Source: Prorocentrum cordatum
Taxonomy: Eukaryota; Sar; Dinophyceae; Prorocentrales; Prorocentraceae
NCBI GenBank assembly: GCA_963575745.1
Contig: CAUYUJ010020615.1
Coordinates: 967,236-1,031,235, forward strand
DNA length: 64,000 nucleotides
Direction of reading: 5' to 3'
Shown: positions 4,660 to 52,350 of the stretch, piece by piece
Position numbering within the stretch: the first letter of the stretch is position 1
Layout of the letters: each line of letters starts with the position of its first letter
Translations under genes and position numbers: made by a program
The notes under the pieces: generated by a model
Seen by the model: the letters and a program-made list of their open reading frames with translations, nothing else
Told to the model about the DNA's origin: nothing
Database searches by the model: none

Positions 4660-6180
4660 CAACTCAGGCTTCCCTACTCAGCGTGGCCCACTCAAGATTC
4701 CCTACTTCGAAGTCCCTGCGAATGCCTTCTTTAACTTCCATGCGCAGGATTCTCCACTGAATATTGCCTACCAAGAATTTCCGACTAAGACCTCACCACT
4801 AAAGATTCCCTACTAAGGATAACCTTGGGAAGCAATTAAGGAACCCTCTGGGGTTATCCTTAGCACCGCACCGTAATTAAACAACCATTAGGGGGTTCTC
4901 GCCGAACAATATAATTAGCATCGCGCAAATGGAAGGAAAATAACAAATCCCCGCGCCCCAGCTCAGCTGGCATACCAGTTGGAATTGGAATAAGGATTCC
5001 CCCGTAGCACTGCCCCATAAGACTCCCTCATGGGACTCCCCCGTAGGACACCCCACAGGACTCCCCCATAGGACTCCCTCATCGAACTCCCCCCCTCCCC
5101 CATCGGACTCCCCCCCCCAGAGGACTCCCCCATAGGACTTCCCCACAGCAGGCGCGTCTGCGTTCAGAGCAGTTTCTGAGGATGTCACAGGCCAGGCGCT
5201 TGTTTCAGAACCACACAGGGGACCAGATGCGCGAGAATGTCTCAGGCGGTTTGCTTGTTTCGGCGGGCAGACTCGTCTGCGTTCTCAGCAGGTTGCGAGG
5301 TGCCAGGGTCTCGCGGGAGAGGGGGGGGCAGGGGGTTCTGAATTGCTTCCTCGGGTTGGGAGTCTCCACTAAGGATGCCCTACTGAGGATTGCCGACTAA
5401 GCCTTCCATGTTAACGCTTCCCGACAAAAGAAATCCTTGGCCAGGAATCCTGAATCAGGAGTCCGTAGTGCGACTTCTTTGTAAGAGACCCTTACTACGA
5501 ATTCTTTGGTGTGATTTCCTTACGTGGTTCCTTACTGATAATTCTTTGGCAACGAATCCTTACTCAGGATTACTACGGAATCCTTACTGAGGATTTCGCA
5601 CTTTGGATCAACCACTGAGGTTCCATGTATAAAACTTCGTTAGAAAAAGGGATTTCTTAGTCCGGATTTGTTACGCACTATATTAGGATTCACTACCAAG
5701 GGTTCCTTACCACGGACTCCTTCGTAAAGATTCGCTACGTACTAAAACCCCAGACACGTTTTTTCCCCAAAGATTCCTTATTCAGGATTCCTCACTGAAG
5801 ATTCCGTAGTACAATTTCCTTTGAAACAACAACCCCTCATTCACGATCCCTTGCTCAGGACGCGTTACTAAGGTGTCCCAACCAAAAATTCCCGACCAAA
5901 GACCGGGGTTCCCGACGAAGGATTCCCGGCTAAGGATTCCCTACTGAGAGTTACTTACTAAGGACTTCTTGTTAAGGACTCGATAGTAAGGATTTGTTGT
6001 ACCAGGCTGCCTCACGGTGGATTCCATACGAAGGGTTCCTTAGTAAAGATTCCTGAGTAAGGAGGGATTCCATTTCAACGAAACCGTATCACGAAGTCCT
6101 TAGACCCCTTACCGAGGACGCCTTTACTAAGCAGCCCGCACTAAACATCCCTTAATGAGGATGCTTTACTCAAGACATTA
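4660..6180 (+). repeat. Degenerate AGGATTCCCTACTA array
   Basis: Decayed units of the type AAGGATTCCCTACTA / GAGGATTCCTTACT recur for about 1.5 kb. A CATAGGACTCCCC sub-block lies at 5,000-5,150. The units are imperfect in length and sequence, so the array is old. Confidence 0.75.
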
Positions 6181-14037: not shown

Positions 14038-14930
14038 CACCCCTCACGCAGATCCGCGGGGTCAGGGTCCAAAAACACATGGGATTTGCCACATTTCTGA
14101 AATTCGGTGCCACCCCTCACGCAGATCCGCGGGGTCAGGGTCCAAAAACACAGGGGATTTGCCACATTTCTGAAATTCGGTGCCACCCCTCACGCAGATC
14201 CGCGGGGTCAGGGTCCAAAAACACATGGGATTTGCCACATTTCTGAAATTCGGTGCCACCCCTCACGCAGATCCGCGGGGTCAGGGTCCAAAAACACAGG
14301 GATTTGCCACATTTCTGAAATTCGGTGCCACCCCTCACGCAGATCCGCGGGGTCAGGGTCCAAAAACACATGGGATTTGCCACATTTCTGAAATTCGGTG
14401 CCACCCCTCACGCAGATCCGCGGGGTCAGGGTCCAAAAACACAAGGGATTTGCCACATTTCTGAAATTCGGTGCCACCCCTCACGCAGATCCGCGGGGTC
14501 AGGGTCCAAAAACACATGGGATTTGCCACATTTCTGAAATTCGGTGCCACCCCTCACGCAGATCCGCGGGGTCAGGGTCCAAAAACACATGGGATTTGCC
14601 ACATTTCTGAAATTCGGTGCCACCCCTCACGCAGATCCGCGGGGTCAGGGTCCAAAAACACATGGGATTTGCCACATTTCTGAAATTCGGTGCCACCCCT
14701 CACGCAGATCCGCGGGGTCAGGGTCCAAAAACACATGGGATTTGCCACATTTCTGAAATTCGGTGCCACCCCTCACGCAGATCCGCGGGGTCAGGGTCCA
14801 AAAACACATGGGATTTGCCACATTTCTGAAATTCGGTGCCACCCCTCACGCAGATCCGCGGGGTCAGGGTCCAAAAACACAAGGGATTTGCCACATTTCT
14901 GAAATTCGGTGCCACCCTTCACGCACATCC
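14038..14930 (+). repeat. 73-bp minisatellite, about 12 nearly identical copies
   Basis: A 73-bp unit starting CACCCCTCACGCAGATCC and containing GGGTCCAAAAACACATGG and TTTCTGAAATTCGGTG is repeated about 12 times. Copies differ mainly at one or two bases after AAACACA; one unit is 72 bp. Short open frames exist on both strands only because the unit has few stops. The homogeneity shows recent expansion. Confidence 0.98.
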
Positions 14931-17559: not shown

Positions 17560-17965
17560 TGAACCTCTCTCTAGGGCCACAACGCGTGTCACGGGTGTGC
17601 CAAAATTGGCACGGGTACGCCATGCGGACGCTGCCACCGAAACGTGTGAGGGGTGCGCCGAACTGAAGTATAACTGCATGCGAACGCTGCCACTAGGGCC
17701 TTTGGCGGAGCTCCAGCTGGGGCCATGAGACGTGTGAGAAGTGCGCCGAAATTGAGAGTGTAACTGCATGCGGGCGCTGCCATTGGGGCCTTCGGTGGAG
17801 CACCCCATGGGGCTACGAAACGTGTGAGGGGTGCGCCGGTTTGGGGGTGGAACTGCATGCGGATCCTGCCACTGGGGTCTTCGGTGGAGCACCTTATGGG
17901 GCGACCGAATATATACGAGGGGTGCGGCGAAATAGAGGTGGAACTGCATGCGGACCCTGCCACTC
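17560..17965 (+). repeat. 88-89-bp satellite array 1, plus-oriented half
   Basis: Units containing GTGCGCCGAAAT, GTGGAACTGCATGCG, CTGCCACTGGGGCCTTCGG and TGGAGCTCCCTATGGGGCCA. It ends abruptly at about 17,965 where orientation flips. Confidence 0.95.
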
Positions 17966-18835
17966 GCATGCAGTTCCCCCCCCCTCCAGTTCGGCGCACC
18001 CCTCACACGCTTCGTGGCCTCATAGGGTGATCCGCCGAGTGCCCCAATGGCAAGGTCCGCATGCAGTTCCACCTCCAAACCGGCGCACCCTTCACACGAT
18101 TCGTGGCCCCCTAGGGAGCTCCACCGAAGACCCCAGTGGCAGGGTCCGCATGCAGTTCCACCTCCATTTCGGCGCACCCCTCACACGATTCGTGGCCCCC
18201 TAGGGAGCTCCCCCGAAGGCCCCAGTGGCAAGGTCCGCATGCAGTTCGACCTCCATTTCGGCAAACCCCTCACACGTTTCGTGGCCCTTAGGGTGCTCCA
18301 CCGAAGGCCCCAGTGGCAAGGTCCGCATGCAGTTCCACCTCCATTTCAGCAAACCCCTCACACGTTTCGTGGCCCAAACGGATGCTCCGCCGAATGCCCC
18401 AGTGGTAGGTCCGTGTGCAATTCCACGTCAATTTCGGCGCATCCCTCATACGTTTCGTGGCCTCATAGGGCGCTCCGCCGAAGGCCCCAGAGGCAGGGTC
18501 CGCATGCAATTCCATCGTCATTTTCGCGCACACCTCACACGCTTCGTGGCCCCCTAGGGGGTTCCACCGAAGGCCCCAGTGGCAGGGTCCGCATGCAATG
18601 TCCACCTTCATTTTCGCACACTCCTCGCACGTTCCGCGGCCACACAGGTTGCTCCGCCGACGGCCCCAGAGGCCGGGTCCGCATGCAGCTCCCCCACCTC
18701 CATTTCGGGCCTCATAGGGTGCTCCGCCGAAGGCCGCAGTGGATGAGTCCGCATGCAGTTCCACCTCCATTTCGGCGCACCCCTCACACGTTCTCTGGCC
18801 CCATAGGGTGCTCCGCCGAAGGCCCCAGTGGCAAC
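17966..18835 (-). repeat. 88-89-bp satellite array 1, inverted half
   Basis: The same satellite in opposite orientation starts immediately at CGCATGCAGTTCC (about 17,966), so the junction is a clean head-to-head inversion with no spacer. About ten units. Confidence 0.95.
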
Positions 18836-18854
18836 ACTAAGGCGACATGGAAGG

Positions 18855-19145
18855 GGGTCGCAGTTGCCCTCTCGCACCCTGCCAGCGCAAAATGAATGGG
18901 GGAAACTGGTTGGGGCAGAGGATGTTCTTTCTTTAGTTCGTTATTTATGTCTGTCTCTCTCTCTCTCTCTTTTCTCTCTCTCTCTCTCTCGCTCTCCCTC
19001 TCTCTACATACATATGTATATATATATATATGTATCACCTCCCACACAGAAACACACGCAACACAGAGTTGGCAATGGGAGGGGGCGAGCGGTTGCCCTC
19101 GCACCCTCCACACTCACGCGCAAAGAAGGGAATGGAACGGGGGAA
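18855..19145 (+). repeat. TC/AT microsatellite flanked by a direct repeat
   Basis: A TC-rich run and (TA)n at 18,950-19,035 lie between two copies of GTTGCCCTCGCACCCT followed by CGCAAA and AATGG...GGGGGAA (18,862-18,905 and 19,094-19,145). Confidence 0.8.
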
Positions 19146-19301
19146 TGCTTGCACTGTCGCTCTCAGTTATTGTCTCTTCTGATTTGTTCCTCTCTCTCTC
19201 TCTCCCTCTCTTCCCTCGGATGCATCGTGAGCGATGGACAAGCCAGATATCGACATAGATGGATGAGCAAACTAGTGTGTGAGAGAGAGTATACGACAAC
19301 G

Positions 19302-19344
19302 ATTATCCAGGCGAAGGACCCAACCATATGCAGTTGTGAGTAAC
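19302..19344 (+). repeat. Head motif of satellite-carrying element, copy 2
   Basis: ATTATCCAGGCGAAGGACCC then AACCATATGCAGTTGTGAGTAACG, directly before array 2. Confidence 0.9.
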
Positions 19345-21295
19345 GCAATGGTATATACTGCCCTCCGTGGAACCCCCTATGGGGCCACGAGCCTTGTGAT
19401 GGGTGAGCCGAAATGGGGGGTGGAACTGCATGCGAACTTTGCCACTGGGGCCCTCGGTGGAACTCCCCATGGGGCCACGAACCGTGTGAAAGGTGCGCCG
19501 AAACGGGGGTGGAACTGCATGCGAACTTTGCCACTTGGCCCCTCGGTGGAACTCCCTATGGGGCCACGGCCGTGTGAGGGGTGCGCCGAAATGGGGGTGG
19601 AACTGCATGCGAACATTGCCACTGGGACCTTCGGTGGAACTCCCTATGGGGCCACGAACCGCGTGGGGGCGCCGAAATGGGGGTGGAACTGCATGCGTAC
19701 TCTGCCACTGAGGCCTTCGGTGGAACTCTTTATGGGGCCACGAACCGTGTTAAAGGTGCGCCGAAACGGGGGTGGAACTGCATGCGGACTTTGCCGTTGG
19801 GGCCTTCGGTGGGGCTCACTATGGGGCCACGAACCGTGTGAGGGGCGCGCCGACATGGGGTTGGACCTGCATGCGAACTTTGCCATTGGGGCCGTCGGTG
19901 GAGCTCCATATGGGGCCACGAACTGTGTGAAGGGCGCGCCAGAATGGGAATGGAACTGCATGCGAACGTTGCCAATGAAACCTGCAATTAAACTACTTAT
20001 GGGGCCACGAACCGCGTGAGGGGTGCGCCGAACTGGGGGCGGAACTGCGTGCGAAATTTGCCACTGGGGCATTCGGTGCCATGAACCGTGTGCCAACATT
20101 CGGTGGGACTGCATTCGAACGTTACCAATGAGGCTTGCAATCGAACTCCATATGGGACCACGAACCGTGTGATGGGTGCGCCGAAATGGGGTGGAACTGC
20201 ATGCGAACTTTGCCGCTGGGGCCTTCGGTGGAGCTCCCCATGGGGCCACGAACCGTGTTAAAGGTGCGCCGAAACGGGGGTGGAACTGCATGCGAACTTT
20301 GCCGCTGGGGCCCTCGGTGGAGCTCCCTATGGGGCCACGAACCGTGTGACGGGTGCATCGAAATGTGGGTGGAACTGTATGCGAACTTTGCCGCTGGGGC
20401 CTTCGGTGGAGCGCCCTATGAGGCCACGAACCGTGTGGAGTGTGCGCCGAAATGGGGGTGGAACTGAATGCGAACCTTGCCGCTGGGGCCTTCGGTGGAG
20501 GGGGTGGAACTGCATGCGAACTTTGCCGCTGGGGCCTTCGGTGGAACTCCCTATGGGGCCACGAACCGTGTGGGGTGCGCCGAAATGGGGGTGGCATGGC
20601 ATGCGAACGTTGCGCTGGGGCCGTCGGTGGAGCTCCCCATGGGGCCGCGAACCGTGTGAAAGGTGCGCCGAAATGGGGGTTGGAACTGCATGCGAACTTT
20701 GCCGCTGGGGCCCTCGGTGGAACTCCCCATGGGGCCACGAACCGTGTGAGAGGTGCGCCGAAATGGGGGTGGAACTGCATGCGAACTTTGCCACTGGGGC
20801 CTTCGGTGGAGCTCCCCATGGGGCCACAGACCGTGTGGACGGTGCACCGAAACGGGGGTGGAACTGCATGCGAACTTTGCCGCTGGGGCCTTCGGTGGAG
20901 CTCCCCATGGGGACACGGACCGTGTGGAAGGTGCGCCAAAATGGGGGTGGAACTGCATGCGAACTTTGCCACTGGGGCCTTCGGTGGATCTCCCCATGGG
21001 GTCACGAACCGTGTTAAAGGTGCGCCGATATGGGGGTGGAACTGCATGCGAACTTTGCCGCTGGGGCCCTCGGTGGAGCTCCCTATGGGGCCACGAATCG
21101 TGTTAAAGGTGCGCCGAAATGGGGGTGGAACTGCATGCAAACTTTGCCGCTGAAGCATTCGGTGGAACTCCCTATGGGGCCACGAACCGTGTGGAGGACG
21201 CCGAAACGGGGGTGGAACTGCATGCGAACTTTGCCACTGGGGCATTGGGTGGAACTCCCTATTGGGGCACGAACCGTGTGAAGGGTGTGCCGAAA
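19345..21295 (+). repeat. 88-89-bp satellite array 2
   Basis: About 22 units of the same satellite, all plus-oriented, with unit-to-unit spacing of 88 or 89 bp and one shortened unit near 20,500. Long open frames across it are products of the repeat. Confidence 0.98.
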
Positions 21296-25275: not shown

Positions 25276-26350
25276 CGTCGTTGCGGGTATCGCCTTCGGG
25301 GGATCTCCTCATGGGGCTATGGAGCATGCGACGGGTGTGCCGATATGGGGCGGGGCCGCCATGTGGGCGCTGCCATAGGGGCTTCAAGTGGAACCGTGCG
25401 GGAAAATTGTGAGGGGTGCGCCGCAATGAGGCGGGGCCGCCGCGCGGGTGGGGGAGACGCATGCGAAGACCGCTGCTGAGGTCTTCGGTGGAGCTCCCCA
25501 TGGGACAACTACTGACCGAAGAATACGCATGCGAACACCGCCACTGAGGCCCTAGGTGGAGCTCCCTATGGAGCCACGAAGCGCTGTACTGGGCGGGGAA
25601 TGCGCATGCGAACACTGCCACTGAGGCCTTTGGTGAAGCTCCCTAAGGGGCCACGCAACGCTGGACAGGGTGGGGGAGACGCACGCAAACACCGCCACTG
25701 AGACCATCGGAGGAGCCCCTTTTATGGGGCCACGAAGCGCTGCACTGGGCGGCGGAGACGCATGCGAAGACCGCCACTGGGGTCTTCGGTGGAGCTCCCC
25801 ATGGGGCCACGAAACGTTGAACCGAGTGGGGCGGACGCATGCAAAACATCGCAACTGAGGCCTTCGGTGGAGGTCGCTATGGGGCCACGAAGCGCTGTAC
25901 TAGGTGGGGAGGACGCATGCGAAGACCGCCGCTGATCCCGGGTAGCTCCCTATGGGGCCACGAACCGCTGCACTGGGTGGGGGAGACGCATGCGAAGACC
26001 GCCACTGAGGCCTTCGGTGGAGCCCCCATATGGGGCCACGAATCGCTGTACTAAGTGGGGGGGACGCCGCATGCGAACACCGCTACTGAGGCCTTCGGAG
26101 GAGCCCCCTATGGGGCCACGAAGCGCTGTACTGAGTGGGCGAGACGCCGCATGCGAACACCTCCACTGAGACCATCCGAGGAGCCCCTTTTATGGGGCCA
26201 CGAAGCGCTGTACTGAGCGGGGGGGACGCATGCGAACACCGCCACTGAGACCATCGGTGGAGCCCCTTTGATGGGGCCACGAAGCGCTGTGCTGGGTGGG
26301 GGATACACATTCGAACACCGCCACTGAGACCATCGGCGGAGCTTCCAAAC
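25276..26350 (+). repeat. Diverged satellite array 3
   Basis: About a dozen units that share CGCATGCGAACACCGCCACTG and TGGAGCTCCCTATGGGGCCA with array 2, but have a different spacer (GCGCTGTACTGGGTGGGGG). Same orientation as its head motif. Confidence 0.95.
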
Positions 26351-33810: not shown

Positions 33811-34311
33811 ATGGCAGACTGGCAACGAGAGACCCTCATCCCCCTTGCGAAGCAGCCCAGGCCCAAGGCAATCTCGGCCGAGGCACGAGCCCTGAAGGGA
33901 GCGGCGCGTCTCCCCGACGAAGATGTGAAAGTGCGCGAGGACTTGCGCCTCGTAGGGGTCAAGTTCCTCGGTGGGCGAGAGGCGGGAAGTGGCGCGAAAA
34001 CGCAGACAAGATCGGGACAAAGTCGGAGCGGGATAAACATCTGGATGTATTTGAGATCCCGCGGTTATGGGATGCGTCTGGCGCCGCAACCTTCTCAGAG
34101 CGATACTCTGAATAAAGCGTTCTGGAACGCTCTCCGGTCCAGATCCTTTGCCTGCCTGAAACGCCGCACGTGGAGCCGCATGCAACCACTCAAAAACGGA
34201 ATCCAGAAAGCGCTCGAGGCATGCAACATGCGCCTGCAGGAACAACAAAGCAAACGCCTGAGAATCGGGCAGGGGGGGGCGCAGATGACTCTCTAAGGGC
34301 ATCAATGGATT
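33811..34311 (+). pseudogene. Possible coding relic, function unknown
   Basis: Two plus frames look protein-like in succession: 33,811-33,985 (SAEARALKGAARLPDEDVKV...) and then a shifted frame reading KWRENADKIGTKSERDKHLD and FEIPRLWDASGAATFSERYS, interrupted by a TAA near 34,110 and continuing to about 34,311. The first frame also stays open to 34,296. Bias is moderate. This could be the 3' continuation of the decayed gene ending at 33,425, but nothing proves it. Confidence 0.3.
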
Positions 34312-50763: not shown

Positions 50764-51891
50764 GGTTGTTCGCACGTCCATGGCCTTCGGACCCTACCGC
50801 CACCGTGCCCGAGCTTTGGGCAGGAGGCTTCTTGGATGCCTATCAGGAGGGGGGCCTCTTGGCATGCTTCTCGGGCGCCTCGTGGAGCGAGCTTCGAAGC
50901 TTCTCGAGGATTCTTCCTGTCCCGCGCGCCAGGATCGTACGAAACGCGGCTCCCCGGCCGAGAAGCCGGCGTGCCGCCTCCACACAGGGGCAGGGCGTCC
51001 CCCCTCGTCCTCATGACCCACGCGTCTGATAATGTTGACGTCGTCGCCCTCTGGCAGGGCACTTGGCGCCCAGTGACCAGCAGCACGTCTGCACCCCAGA
51101 AGCCGTACGTGAACACCCACAATGCAGCCCTGGATGTTGCTCTTCTGCGAGCCAGACGCGGATTCAAATGACAGCTTCAGCTTGAAATTATCTGCGTGCC
51201 GCTCTGGGAGCTTCTTGCCGACGATGGGCGTACCGCCAGGACAGCGCGGTGCAAATCTGTCCACAGCGACTCGCGCTGCTCCGCTCCAGCTTCGCTGAAT
51301 GTGCGCGCTGAGCGTATTAAACAAAGCTTACCTTCCGATCTCGCGGAAGTAATGTACCACTTCCTTCACCAGTGCACGTTCCCCTCCCTCTTGCAGGGCG
51401 CGACGTCGAATGCACGTCTGGTCGCTCTTATGGAGGTTGTCGAGGTATGACAGAAATTCTGACTTCGATTCGTGTAATTAATCAAGATCATACACTTTTG
51501 TCGACTCCCCTTCGAGCTTGCACTTTGCACCAAGACTCTCAACTGCCGTGGGGGCCTGTTGGACCTGCTGCGTCCATACCTGCACAAGTTTACCACACGT
51601 CGCGCGAATGTCTTCGTCAGCAGACTTCCCAGAAAACATGTTCACGATCTTGCCGATCTGGGTTCCCCTCATTACAATGACAACAATGCACTGGAGTACG
51701 ACGAGGCAGTCTTGGGCCTTGAAACAAGCTGCCGTCGACGGTGTGTAATCCTGCAGGATGCATTTTGACTCAATGGCTGGCGGCAATCGCGTCGCAAGCA
51801 CCGTGTCCTGCAGCCATGACAGCTCAATCAATGGACCGGCGCCAGGTAATACCGAGCCACTGCGCGAACAGTACGGCCTCGAGCCACACCT

Positions 51892-51906
51892 CTTGAACCA
51901 AAATGG
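51892..51906 (-). other. Truncated relict spliced leader
   Basis: CCATTTTGGTTCAAG on the minus strand: the last 15 bases of the leader, one base different. It follows the full copy exactly where a second trans-splicing at the AG of CCGTAG would place it. Confidence 0.85.
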
Positions 51907-51928
51907 CTTGAACCAAAATGACTACGGA
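51907..51928 (-). other. Dinoflagellate spliced leader (DinoSL) copy
   Basis: The minus strand reads TCCGTAGTCATTTTGGTTCA then AG. The known leader is D-CCGTAGCCATTTTGGCTCAAG; two C-to-T differences in 22. It is not an SL RNA gene, because no GT donor follows; another leader fragment does. Confidence 0.88.
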
Positions 51929-51939
51929 AGCTTCTCGGG

Positions 51940-52350
51940 GACTCTTGGGGGCAGTATGGGGACCTCCTGGGGCCTCTTTTGGTGCCCTTGGAGGCCTCTT
52001 GGGGGCCTGCTGGCGGCCTCGGGGGCCCACTTGTGGCGGAAGACTCGAAATGTCAACTTGAATTCCTCCTCTTGGACCTCTCTTCGGCCGTCTGGACGCC
52101 TCTTGGATCGTCTTGGGGCTCTCTCGGGCAGTCCTGGGGCCCTCTTGGGGGGTCTCTTGGGCTGTCTTGGGGCGATCTTGGGTTGCTCTTGGGCCGTCTT
52201 GGAGGCAGTTGAAGCCCCAAAAGCGAATATAGCAAAAGTTCAAGTCTTCCTTCAAGAATGTAGCAATTTTGGCATCCTGCGGCCCTCACGGGGGCGATTT
52301 AAAGCCTTTTTGGAGCGTCTTCGGGGCCTCTTGGGCCGTCTTGAAATAAT
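51940..52350 (-). repeat. CCAAGA-rich repeat block, inverted
   Basis: GGGGCCTCTTGG / GGCCGTCTTGGAGG units, the reverse complement of the usual orientation. It lies immediately upstream of the leader-tagged retrocopy. Confidence 0.8.

Follow-up and report, generated by a model that had tools for sequence, protein, structure and literature searches.

In a 64,000-nt stretch of the genome of Prorocentrum cordatum (of which we take P. minimum to be a synonym), a broken copy of a gene with a TFIIS-N/Med26 domain is best explained as a twice-recycled, leader-tagged mRNA that was inserted with a target-site duplication and then decayed (probability about 0.83). The whole stretch, with a GC content of 59.5%, is called the window below. 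According to this account, mRNA of the gene would have received a spliced leader, been reverse-transcribed and been inserted as a first retrocopy. This retrocopy would then have been transcribed, and a new leader joined at the AG within the CCGTAG of the old one; layout and genome-wide count suggest that such re-splicing would leave the last 15 bases of the old leader as a relict. The second mRNA would have been spliced, reverse-transcribed and inserted into a dispersed repeat at the window site with creation of a 20-nt target-site duplication; the insertion and the absence of one intron are directly visible in the DNA. The length of the duplication suggests that non-LTR machinery (LINE-type, target-primed) made the insertion, after which the copy would have decayed to a pseudogene, with the frame change and stops that it now carries.

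On the minus strand, positions 51907-51928 hold a copy of the 22-nt dinoflagellate spliced leader with 20/22 bases identical (TCCGTAGTCATTTTGGTTCAAG vs DCCGTAGCCATTTTGGCTCAAG). Directly behind it, without a gap, 51892-51906 on the same strand (CCATTTTGGTTCAAG) repeat the leader's last 15 bases (14/15), so that leader and relict together have 3 mismatches in 37. The same C-to-T change is common to both. An earlier note, made from the letters alone, had described this pair, and its description was borne out: a search for 21 nt of the leader with up to 3 mismatches found this single site in the window and no match in any of 100 shuffles that preserved dinucleotide composition, and with up to 5 mismatches the only window matches were the leader site and its overlap with the relict. 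The 15-nt relict with up to 3 mismatches had three additional matches in the window, two in an 89-nt tandem array and the third on the plus strand within the retrocopy; elsewhere in the window there was no second site with leader plus relict. Phage records gave no match, and viral contigs had no two exact relicts in tandem.

The assembly searched for comparison comprises 4,128,499,153 bases in 21,875 contigs. In a genome of this size a short motif could match by chance beside an ordinary gene, and the relict alone does have a background (72,065 matches vs 4,255 for the reversed control). Such a coincidence is nevertheless exceedingly improbable here, in view of the 0/100 shuffles, of the insert boundary, which lies at the leader's first bases and is placed there by the target duplication, and of the gene homology downstream. 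An SL RNA repeat, which the earlier note had named as the finding that would overturn its reading, was also considered. The leader is followed by CC with no GT donor behind it, the relict and a protein gene follow, and Rfam, which may not include dinoflagellate SL RNA, gave no match in the window at gathering score. An SL RNA gene was therefore rejected.

Genome-wide, the full leader with up to 2 mismatches occurs at 33,832 sites (9 for the reversed control), 14,218 of them exact (control 0). The search for leader plus 15-nt relict that the earlier note had called for (CCATTTTGGCTCAAG, up to 2 mismatches) returned 2,747 sites and none for the control; the window pair, with 3 mismatches to this 36-nt pattern, lies outside the 2,747. 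A leader directly after the end of a full leader, with one base between, was found at only 25 sites (control 0) with a pattern that is shorter, and hence more permissive, than that of leader plus relict. The cut form is thus in 110-fold excess, which agrees with the note's proposal that CCGTAG supplies the AG for a new leader, and thereby with two rounds of retroposition. Re-splicing at this AG is stated in the accessible part of PMC3229502. Two rounds are the best reading that we infer from the layout together with these counts.

A single retroposition would be enough if leader and relict had been trans-spliced at once from a tandem-SL RNA gene. Genes of this kind with partial units are reported from Fugacium kawagutii, where tandem-SL and SL-like RNA genes resemble the window site in having a leader followed by partial leader units (PMC6616646, available part). 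The one substitution that leader and relict have in common agrees with such a source, and it counts against two separate leaders, which need not both have it. In the genome, neighbouring units of which the first has the T but is otherwise exact occur at 31 places, and pairs with T in both units at 3, of which two sit in one array. Unlike the Fugacium genes, however, the window leader lacks a GT donor and has a protein gene behind it, and the 2,747 leader-plus-relict sites, which among the matches listed are spread over many contigs, are in our judgement more easily made by recycling. We consider the one-step origin unlikely. Even less probable is that, after insertion, 15 bp at the end of the leader were duplicated locally in tandem: duplication after the C-to-T mutation would account for the shared change, but the register of such duplications is expected to vary at random, whereas the unit starts exactly after the AG, the 22+15 layout recurs 2,747 times in the genome and the full-leader register only 25 times.

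Behind the tandem, the copy can be read as a gene. The putative 5' UTR (51818-51891, minus strand) extends to an ATG aligned with residue 1 of P0001, a protein of 254 amino acids from JGI data and the only one at E <= 0.001 among 595 candidates. The broken coding region (51094-51817, minus strand) was delimited by tblastn alignment to P0001: over residues 16-254, 146 of 244 aligned positions are identical (60%), with two in-frame stops, 23 gap positions and no intron-sized gap. P0001 residues 1-13, from which the ATG and the end of the 5' UTR are placed, match in a different frame (frame +1) and weakly when taken alone (E 0.019). Because the two parts align in different frames, the reading frame seems to shift near 51775, with the ATG in one frame and the rest in another. 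Within the broken frame, 51562-51675 (minus strand) match the TFIIS-N/Med26 helical-bundle domain PF08711 (E 3.4e-6; 27.2 bits vs a cut-off of 20.6). The frame change and the two stops argue against a working protein, and on this sequence evidence the retrocopy reads as a pseudogene.

The earlier note had also suggested comparing the downstream sequence with an intron-bearing parent gene, and had regarded the lack of any matching parent as fatal to its reading; such a relative was found. A genome search with P0001 at E <= 0.001 gave two matches, one to the window copy and one to an exon of contig C15074 that is identical to the end of P0001 over 25/25 residues. Positions 761-917 and 919-1008 of the copy match two stretches of C15074 (157 nt at 77.7% and 92 nt at 76.1%) that are adjacent in the copy and about 882 nt apart on C15074, and the part of the 3' UTR at 50916-51093 (minus strand) joins them at about 51012. 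The intron of about 882 nt between the two C15074 exons is thus missing from the copy. In the spliced alignment of the copy with C15074, the top-scoring junctions take out 880-884 nt, with a maximum of 127; the score is 123 for a candidate GC...AG intron of 882 nt and 124 for a CT...AG intron. Donors G-C and G-A are permitted in the gene models of PMC10666404, in the part accessible to us.

Because copy and C15074 sequence differ at about 22-24% of sites, the C15074 gene may be a relative and not necessarily the direct source. A search of the 27.8 kb upstream, which contain one 100-N gap, did not reveal the remainder of that gene with its 5' end, and no other C15074 exon was present among the 18 genome matches to P0001 at E <= 10 (best 149 of 207 candidates), of which the 16 further ones are all weak. 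Likewise, the first-round retrocopy that two rounds would imply was not found, the C15074 exon being the sole other P0001 match at E <= 0.001; the two rounds claimed in the earlier note stand as an interpretation supported by the count of 2,747 vs 25.

The insert spans about 50916-51928 and is flanked by 20-nt direct repeats. AAGAGTCCCCGAGAAGCTTC (51927-51946, minus strand) stands directly before the leader, its last two bases being the leader's first two, and AAGAATCCTCGAGAAGCTTC (50896-50915, minus strand) stands 1,013 nt further on and matches it at 18/20 positions. None of 1,460 upstream 20-mers reached 18 matches against the same 3 kb. In 124 local trials, a repeat as good was obtained in 14% at 12 nt, in 6% at 16 nt and in none at 20 nt. 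This local null was used because the window-wide null was poor: 133 of its 1,595 trials reached 18/20, a frequency that we put down to microsatellites.

The target DNA itself, 50850-50915 and 51927-52010, belongs to a dispersed CAAGAGGCC-rich repeat family. The part behind the insert (50850-50895, minus strand) matches at least 38 other places in the genome (DNA search, best 40 of 474 candidates), and these matches start inside the duplicated site or right at it. Among the listed matches, four places also match the sequence in front of the insert. We fetched six related loci, those four and two others; all cross the junction without an insert and have one copy of the target each. L044 and L045 are identical in the stretch shown, leaving five distinct empty-site loci. 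At its other end the copy has no poly(A) tail and closes with GGACAGG before the target repeat. C15074 reads GGACAAAAAAGAGAC at the point of the copy's 3' end, and GGACAAAAAAGAG where the copy has its GGACAGG end; priming inside an A-rich stretch is possible.

Target-primed insertion of the LINE type leaves a long, variable target-site duplication of about 7-20 nt, and LTR integrase a short, fixed one of 4-6 nt. Mammalian LINE-1 processed pseudogenes are intron-free copies between direct repeats of about 20 nt. The window duplication, 20 nt long with 18/20 identity and with empty-site relatives, has the length of the LINE type and lies outside the 4-6 nt of LTR integrase, which suggests target-primed insertion. 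The copy resembles LINE-1 processed pseudogenes in being intron-free between direct repeats of about 20 nt; it differs from them in lacking poly(A) and in having a trans-spliced leader at its 5' end. Since it has no poly(A) or A-rich 3' end, we do not class it as a LINE-1-type processed pseudogene and say only that it looks target-primed. Retropseudogenes without a tail, which the window copy resembles in this respect, are the subject of PMC5322556, as far as its available part goes. In the accessible text of PMC6050394, the type of element mediating retroposition is given as unknown, with LTR elements such as Ty1/copia thought more likely, and in that of PMC10235124 LINEs are suggested for endogenised viral genes. 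The long duplication with empty-site relatives bears on the question of which enzyme integrates the copies.

Since a full-length copy begins exactly at its leader, target duplications and landing sites become measurable at other leaders as well. For comparison we took 20 loci around relict sites at the start of the list for contig C1 (three sites there were left out), which gave 19 leaders with up to 2 mismatches after removal of repeats from overlapping loci. One of the 19 has a convincing long target duplication: in L028 (G000:C1:2257000-2266999), at locus position 4770, leader plus relict are accompanied by a 19-nt direct repeat, AAAARGTGCCTTGCATGCG, whose copies are about 5.1 kb apart and which comes without an empty site. 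Four more leaders rank above at least 99% of local trials at 20 nt: L027 (18/20), L021 (16), L012 (16) and L022 (14). The repeat of L027 is a microsatellite, that of L021 a pyrimidine stretch and that of L012 a weak purine-rich match. Within about 5 kb, the other 14 of the 19 leaders show nothing exceptional at 20 nt; L014 comes nearest, at 6%. The case for a long duplication is thus made for the window copy and, probably, for L028; it does not extend to the class as a whole.

Many leaders adjoin TCC or GGA tracts. At 8 of the 19 leader sites from the 20 loci, at least 18 of the 24 preceding bases fit a TCC or a GGA tract. By the same measure 1.4% each of random positions (n = 77,340) fit. Genome-wide, (TCC)4 lies no more than 6 nt ahead of 1,536 of the 7,017 exact reverse-strand leaders (21.9%) and (GGA)4 ahead of 603 (8.6%), with 0 in both reversed-pattern controls. 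Both shares greatly exceed the base rate for such tracts, a local one of roughly 0.55% of positions in the window and 0.71% in the window plus the 20 loci, which were themselves chosen around leaders. These counts were taken from the reverse strand, since the forward-strand listing repeats many sites two or three times; they were judged, from the matches listed, to hold one entry per site, and sites repeated through duplication or within gene families would be counted each time. L017, L019, L021 and L026 are examples of leaders that adjoin a tract. The window copy itself is not beside one.

If TCC tracts act as polypyrimidine tracts when a leader is re-spliced to the CCGTAG acceptor, this could account for their excess. 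GGA tracts must owe theirs to something else, for example a preference during insertion. We tentatively suggest, at somewhat less than even odds, that leader-tagged copies are inserted by target-primed, LINE-like machinery and that either this machinery or the selection of survivors favours TCC/GGA microsatellites. Within 5 kb downstream, the tract resumes at 2 of the 8 sites (L026 and L027) and is absent at 6, which argues against simple insertion within a tract unless the inserts are longer. Among the papers listed in a literature search, none dealt with a link between leaders and TCC/GGA tracts, as judged by titles and the beginnings of abstracts. As far as its accessible part goes, PMC2488372 describes trans-splice acceptors without a simple primary consensus and simple sequence repeats in the intergenic spacers of some dinoflagellate genes.

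A model of mRNA recycling in dinoflagellates was reportedly put forward by Slamovits and Keeling in 2008. mRNA recycling itself has been known since then, and the model for the window copy is the published one; newer are the long duplication with empty-site relatives and the association of leaders with TCC/GGA tracts. Both PMC3229502 and PMC6050394, in their available parts, report the recycling model. The same 37-nt tandem serves as the signature in a survey that, in its accessible text, gives DinoSL-DinoRL in 6,213 of 6,544 retrogenes from transcriptomes and 477 retrogenes in P. minimum (PMC12014239). DinoSL-DinoRL retrogenes have a leader, a relict trimmed at the AG, after nucleotide 7, a protein gene downstream and intron loss. 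In keeping with this, the window copy has the leader at its 5' edge, where the target repeat abuts, the relict after the AG, and no intron where the C15074 relative has one; unlike those retrogenes, it is a dead copy in genomic DNA, flanked by a target-site duplication and with empty-site relatives elsewhere. Dinoflagellate genomes are believed to have been shaped by mRNA recycling, and here its genomic anatomy is nearly complete, with a parent-like gene, a landing site in duplicate and relatives of this site that lack the insert. The long duplication together with the tract counts makes the mechanism testable on thousands of sites.

Several further arrangements of relicts and repeats were observed. 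L015 and L016 (G000:C1, near 562078 and 569289), 7 kb apart, have the same relict and the same next 20 bases, with an ATG start, and are perhaps a tandem gene pair with one common relict. L025 (G000:C1:1741686-1741736) has inverted beside direct leader relicts, and at G000:C10624:272992-273051 four or more relict units form an array in which three show the rare T variant. In the window, 17633-21295 and 25457-26342 are long arrays of similar 77-90-nt tandem repeats, and 14038-14930 holds 12 copies of a 73-nt tandem repeat at 98%.
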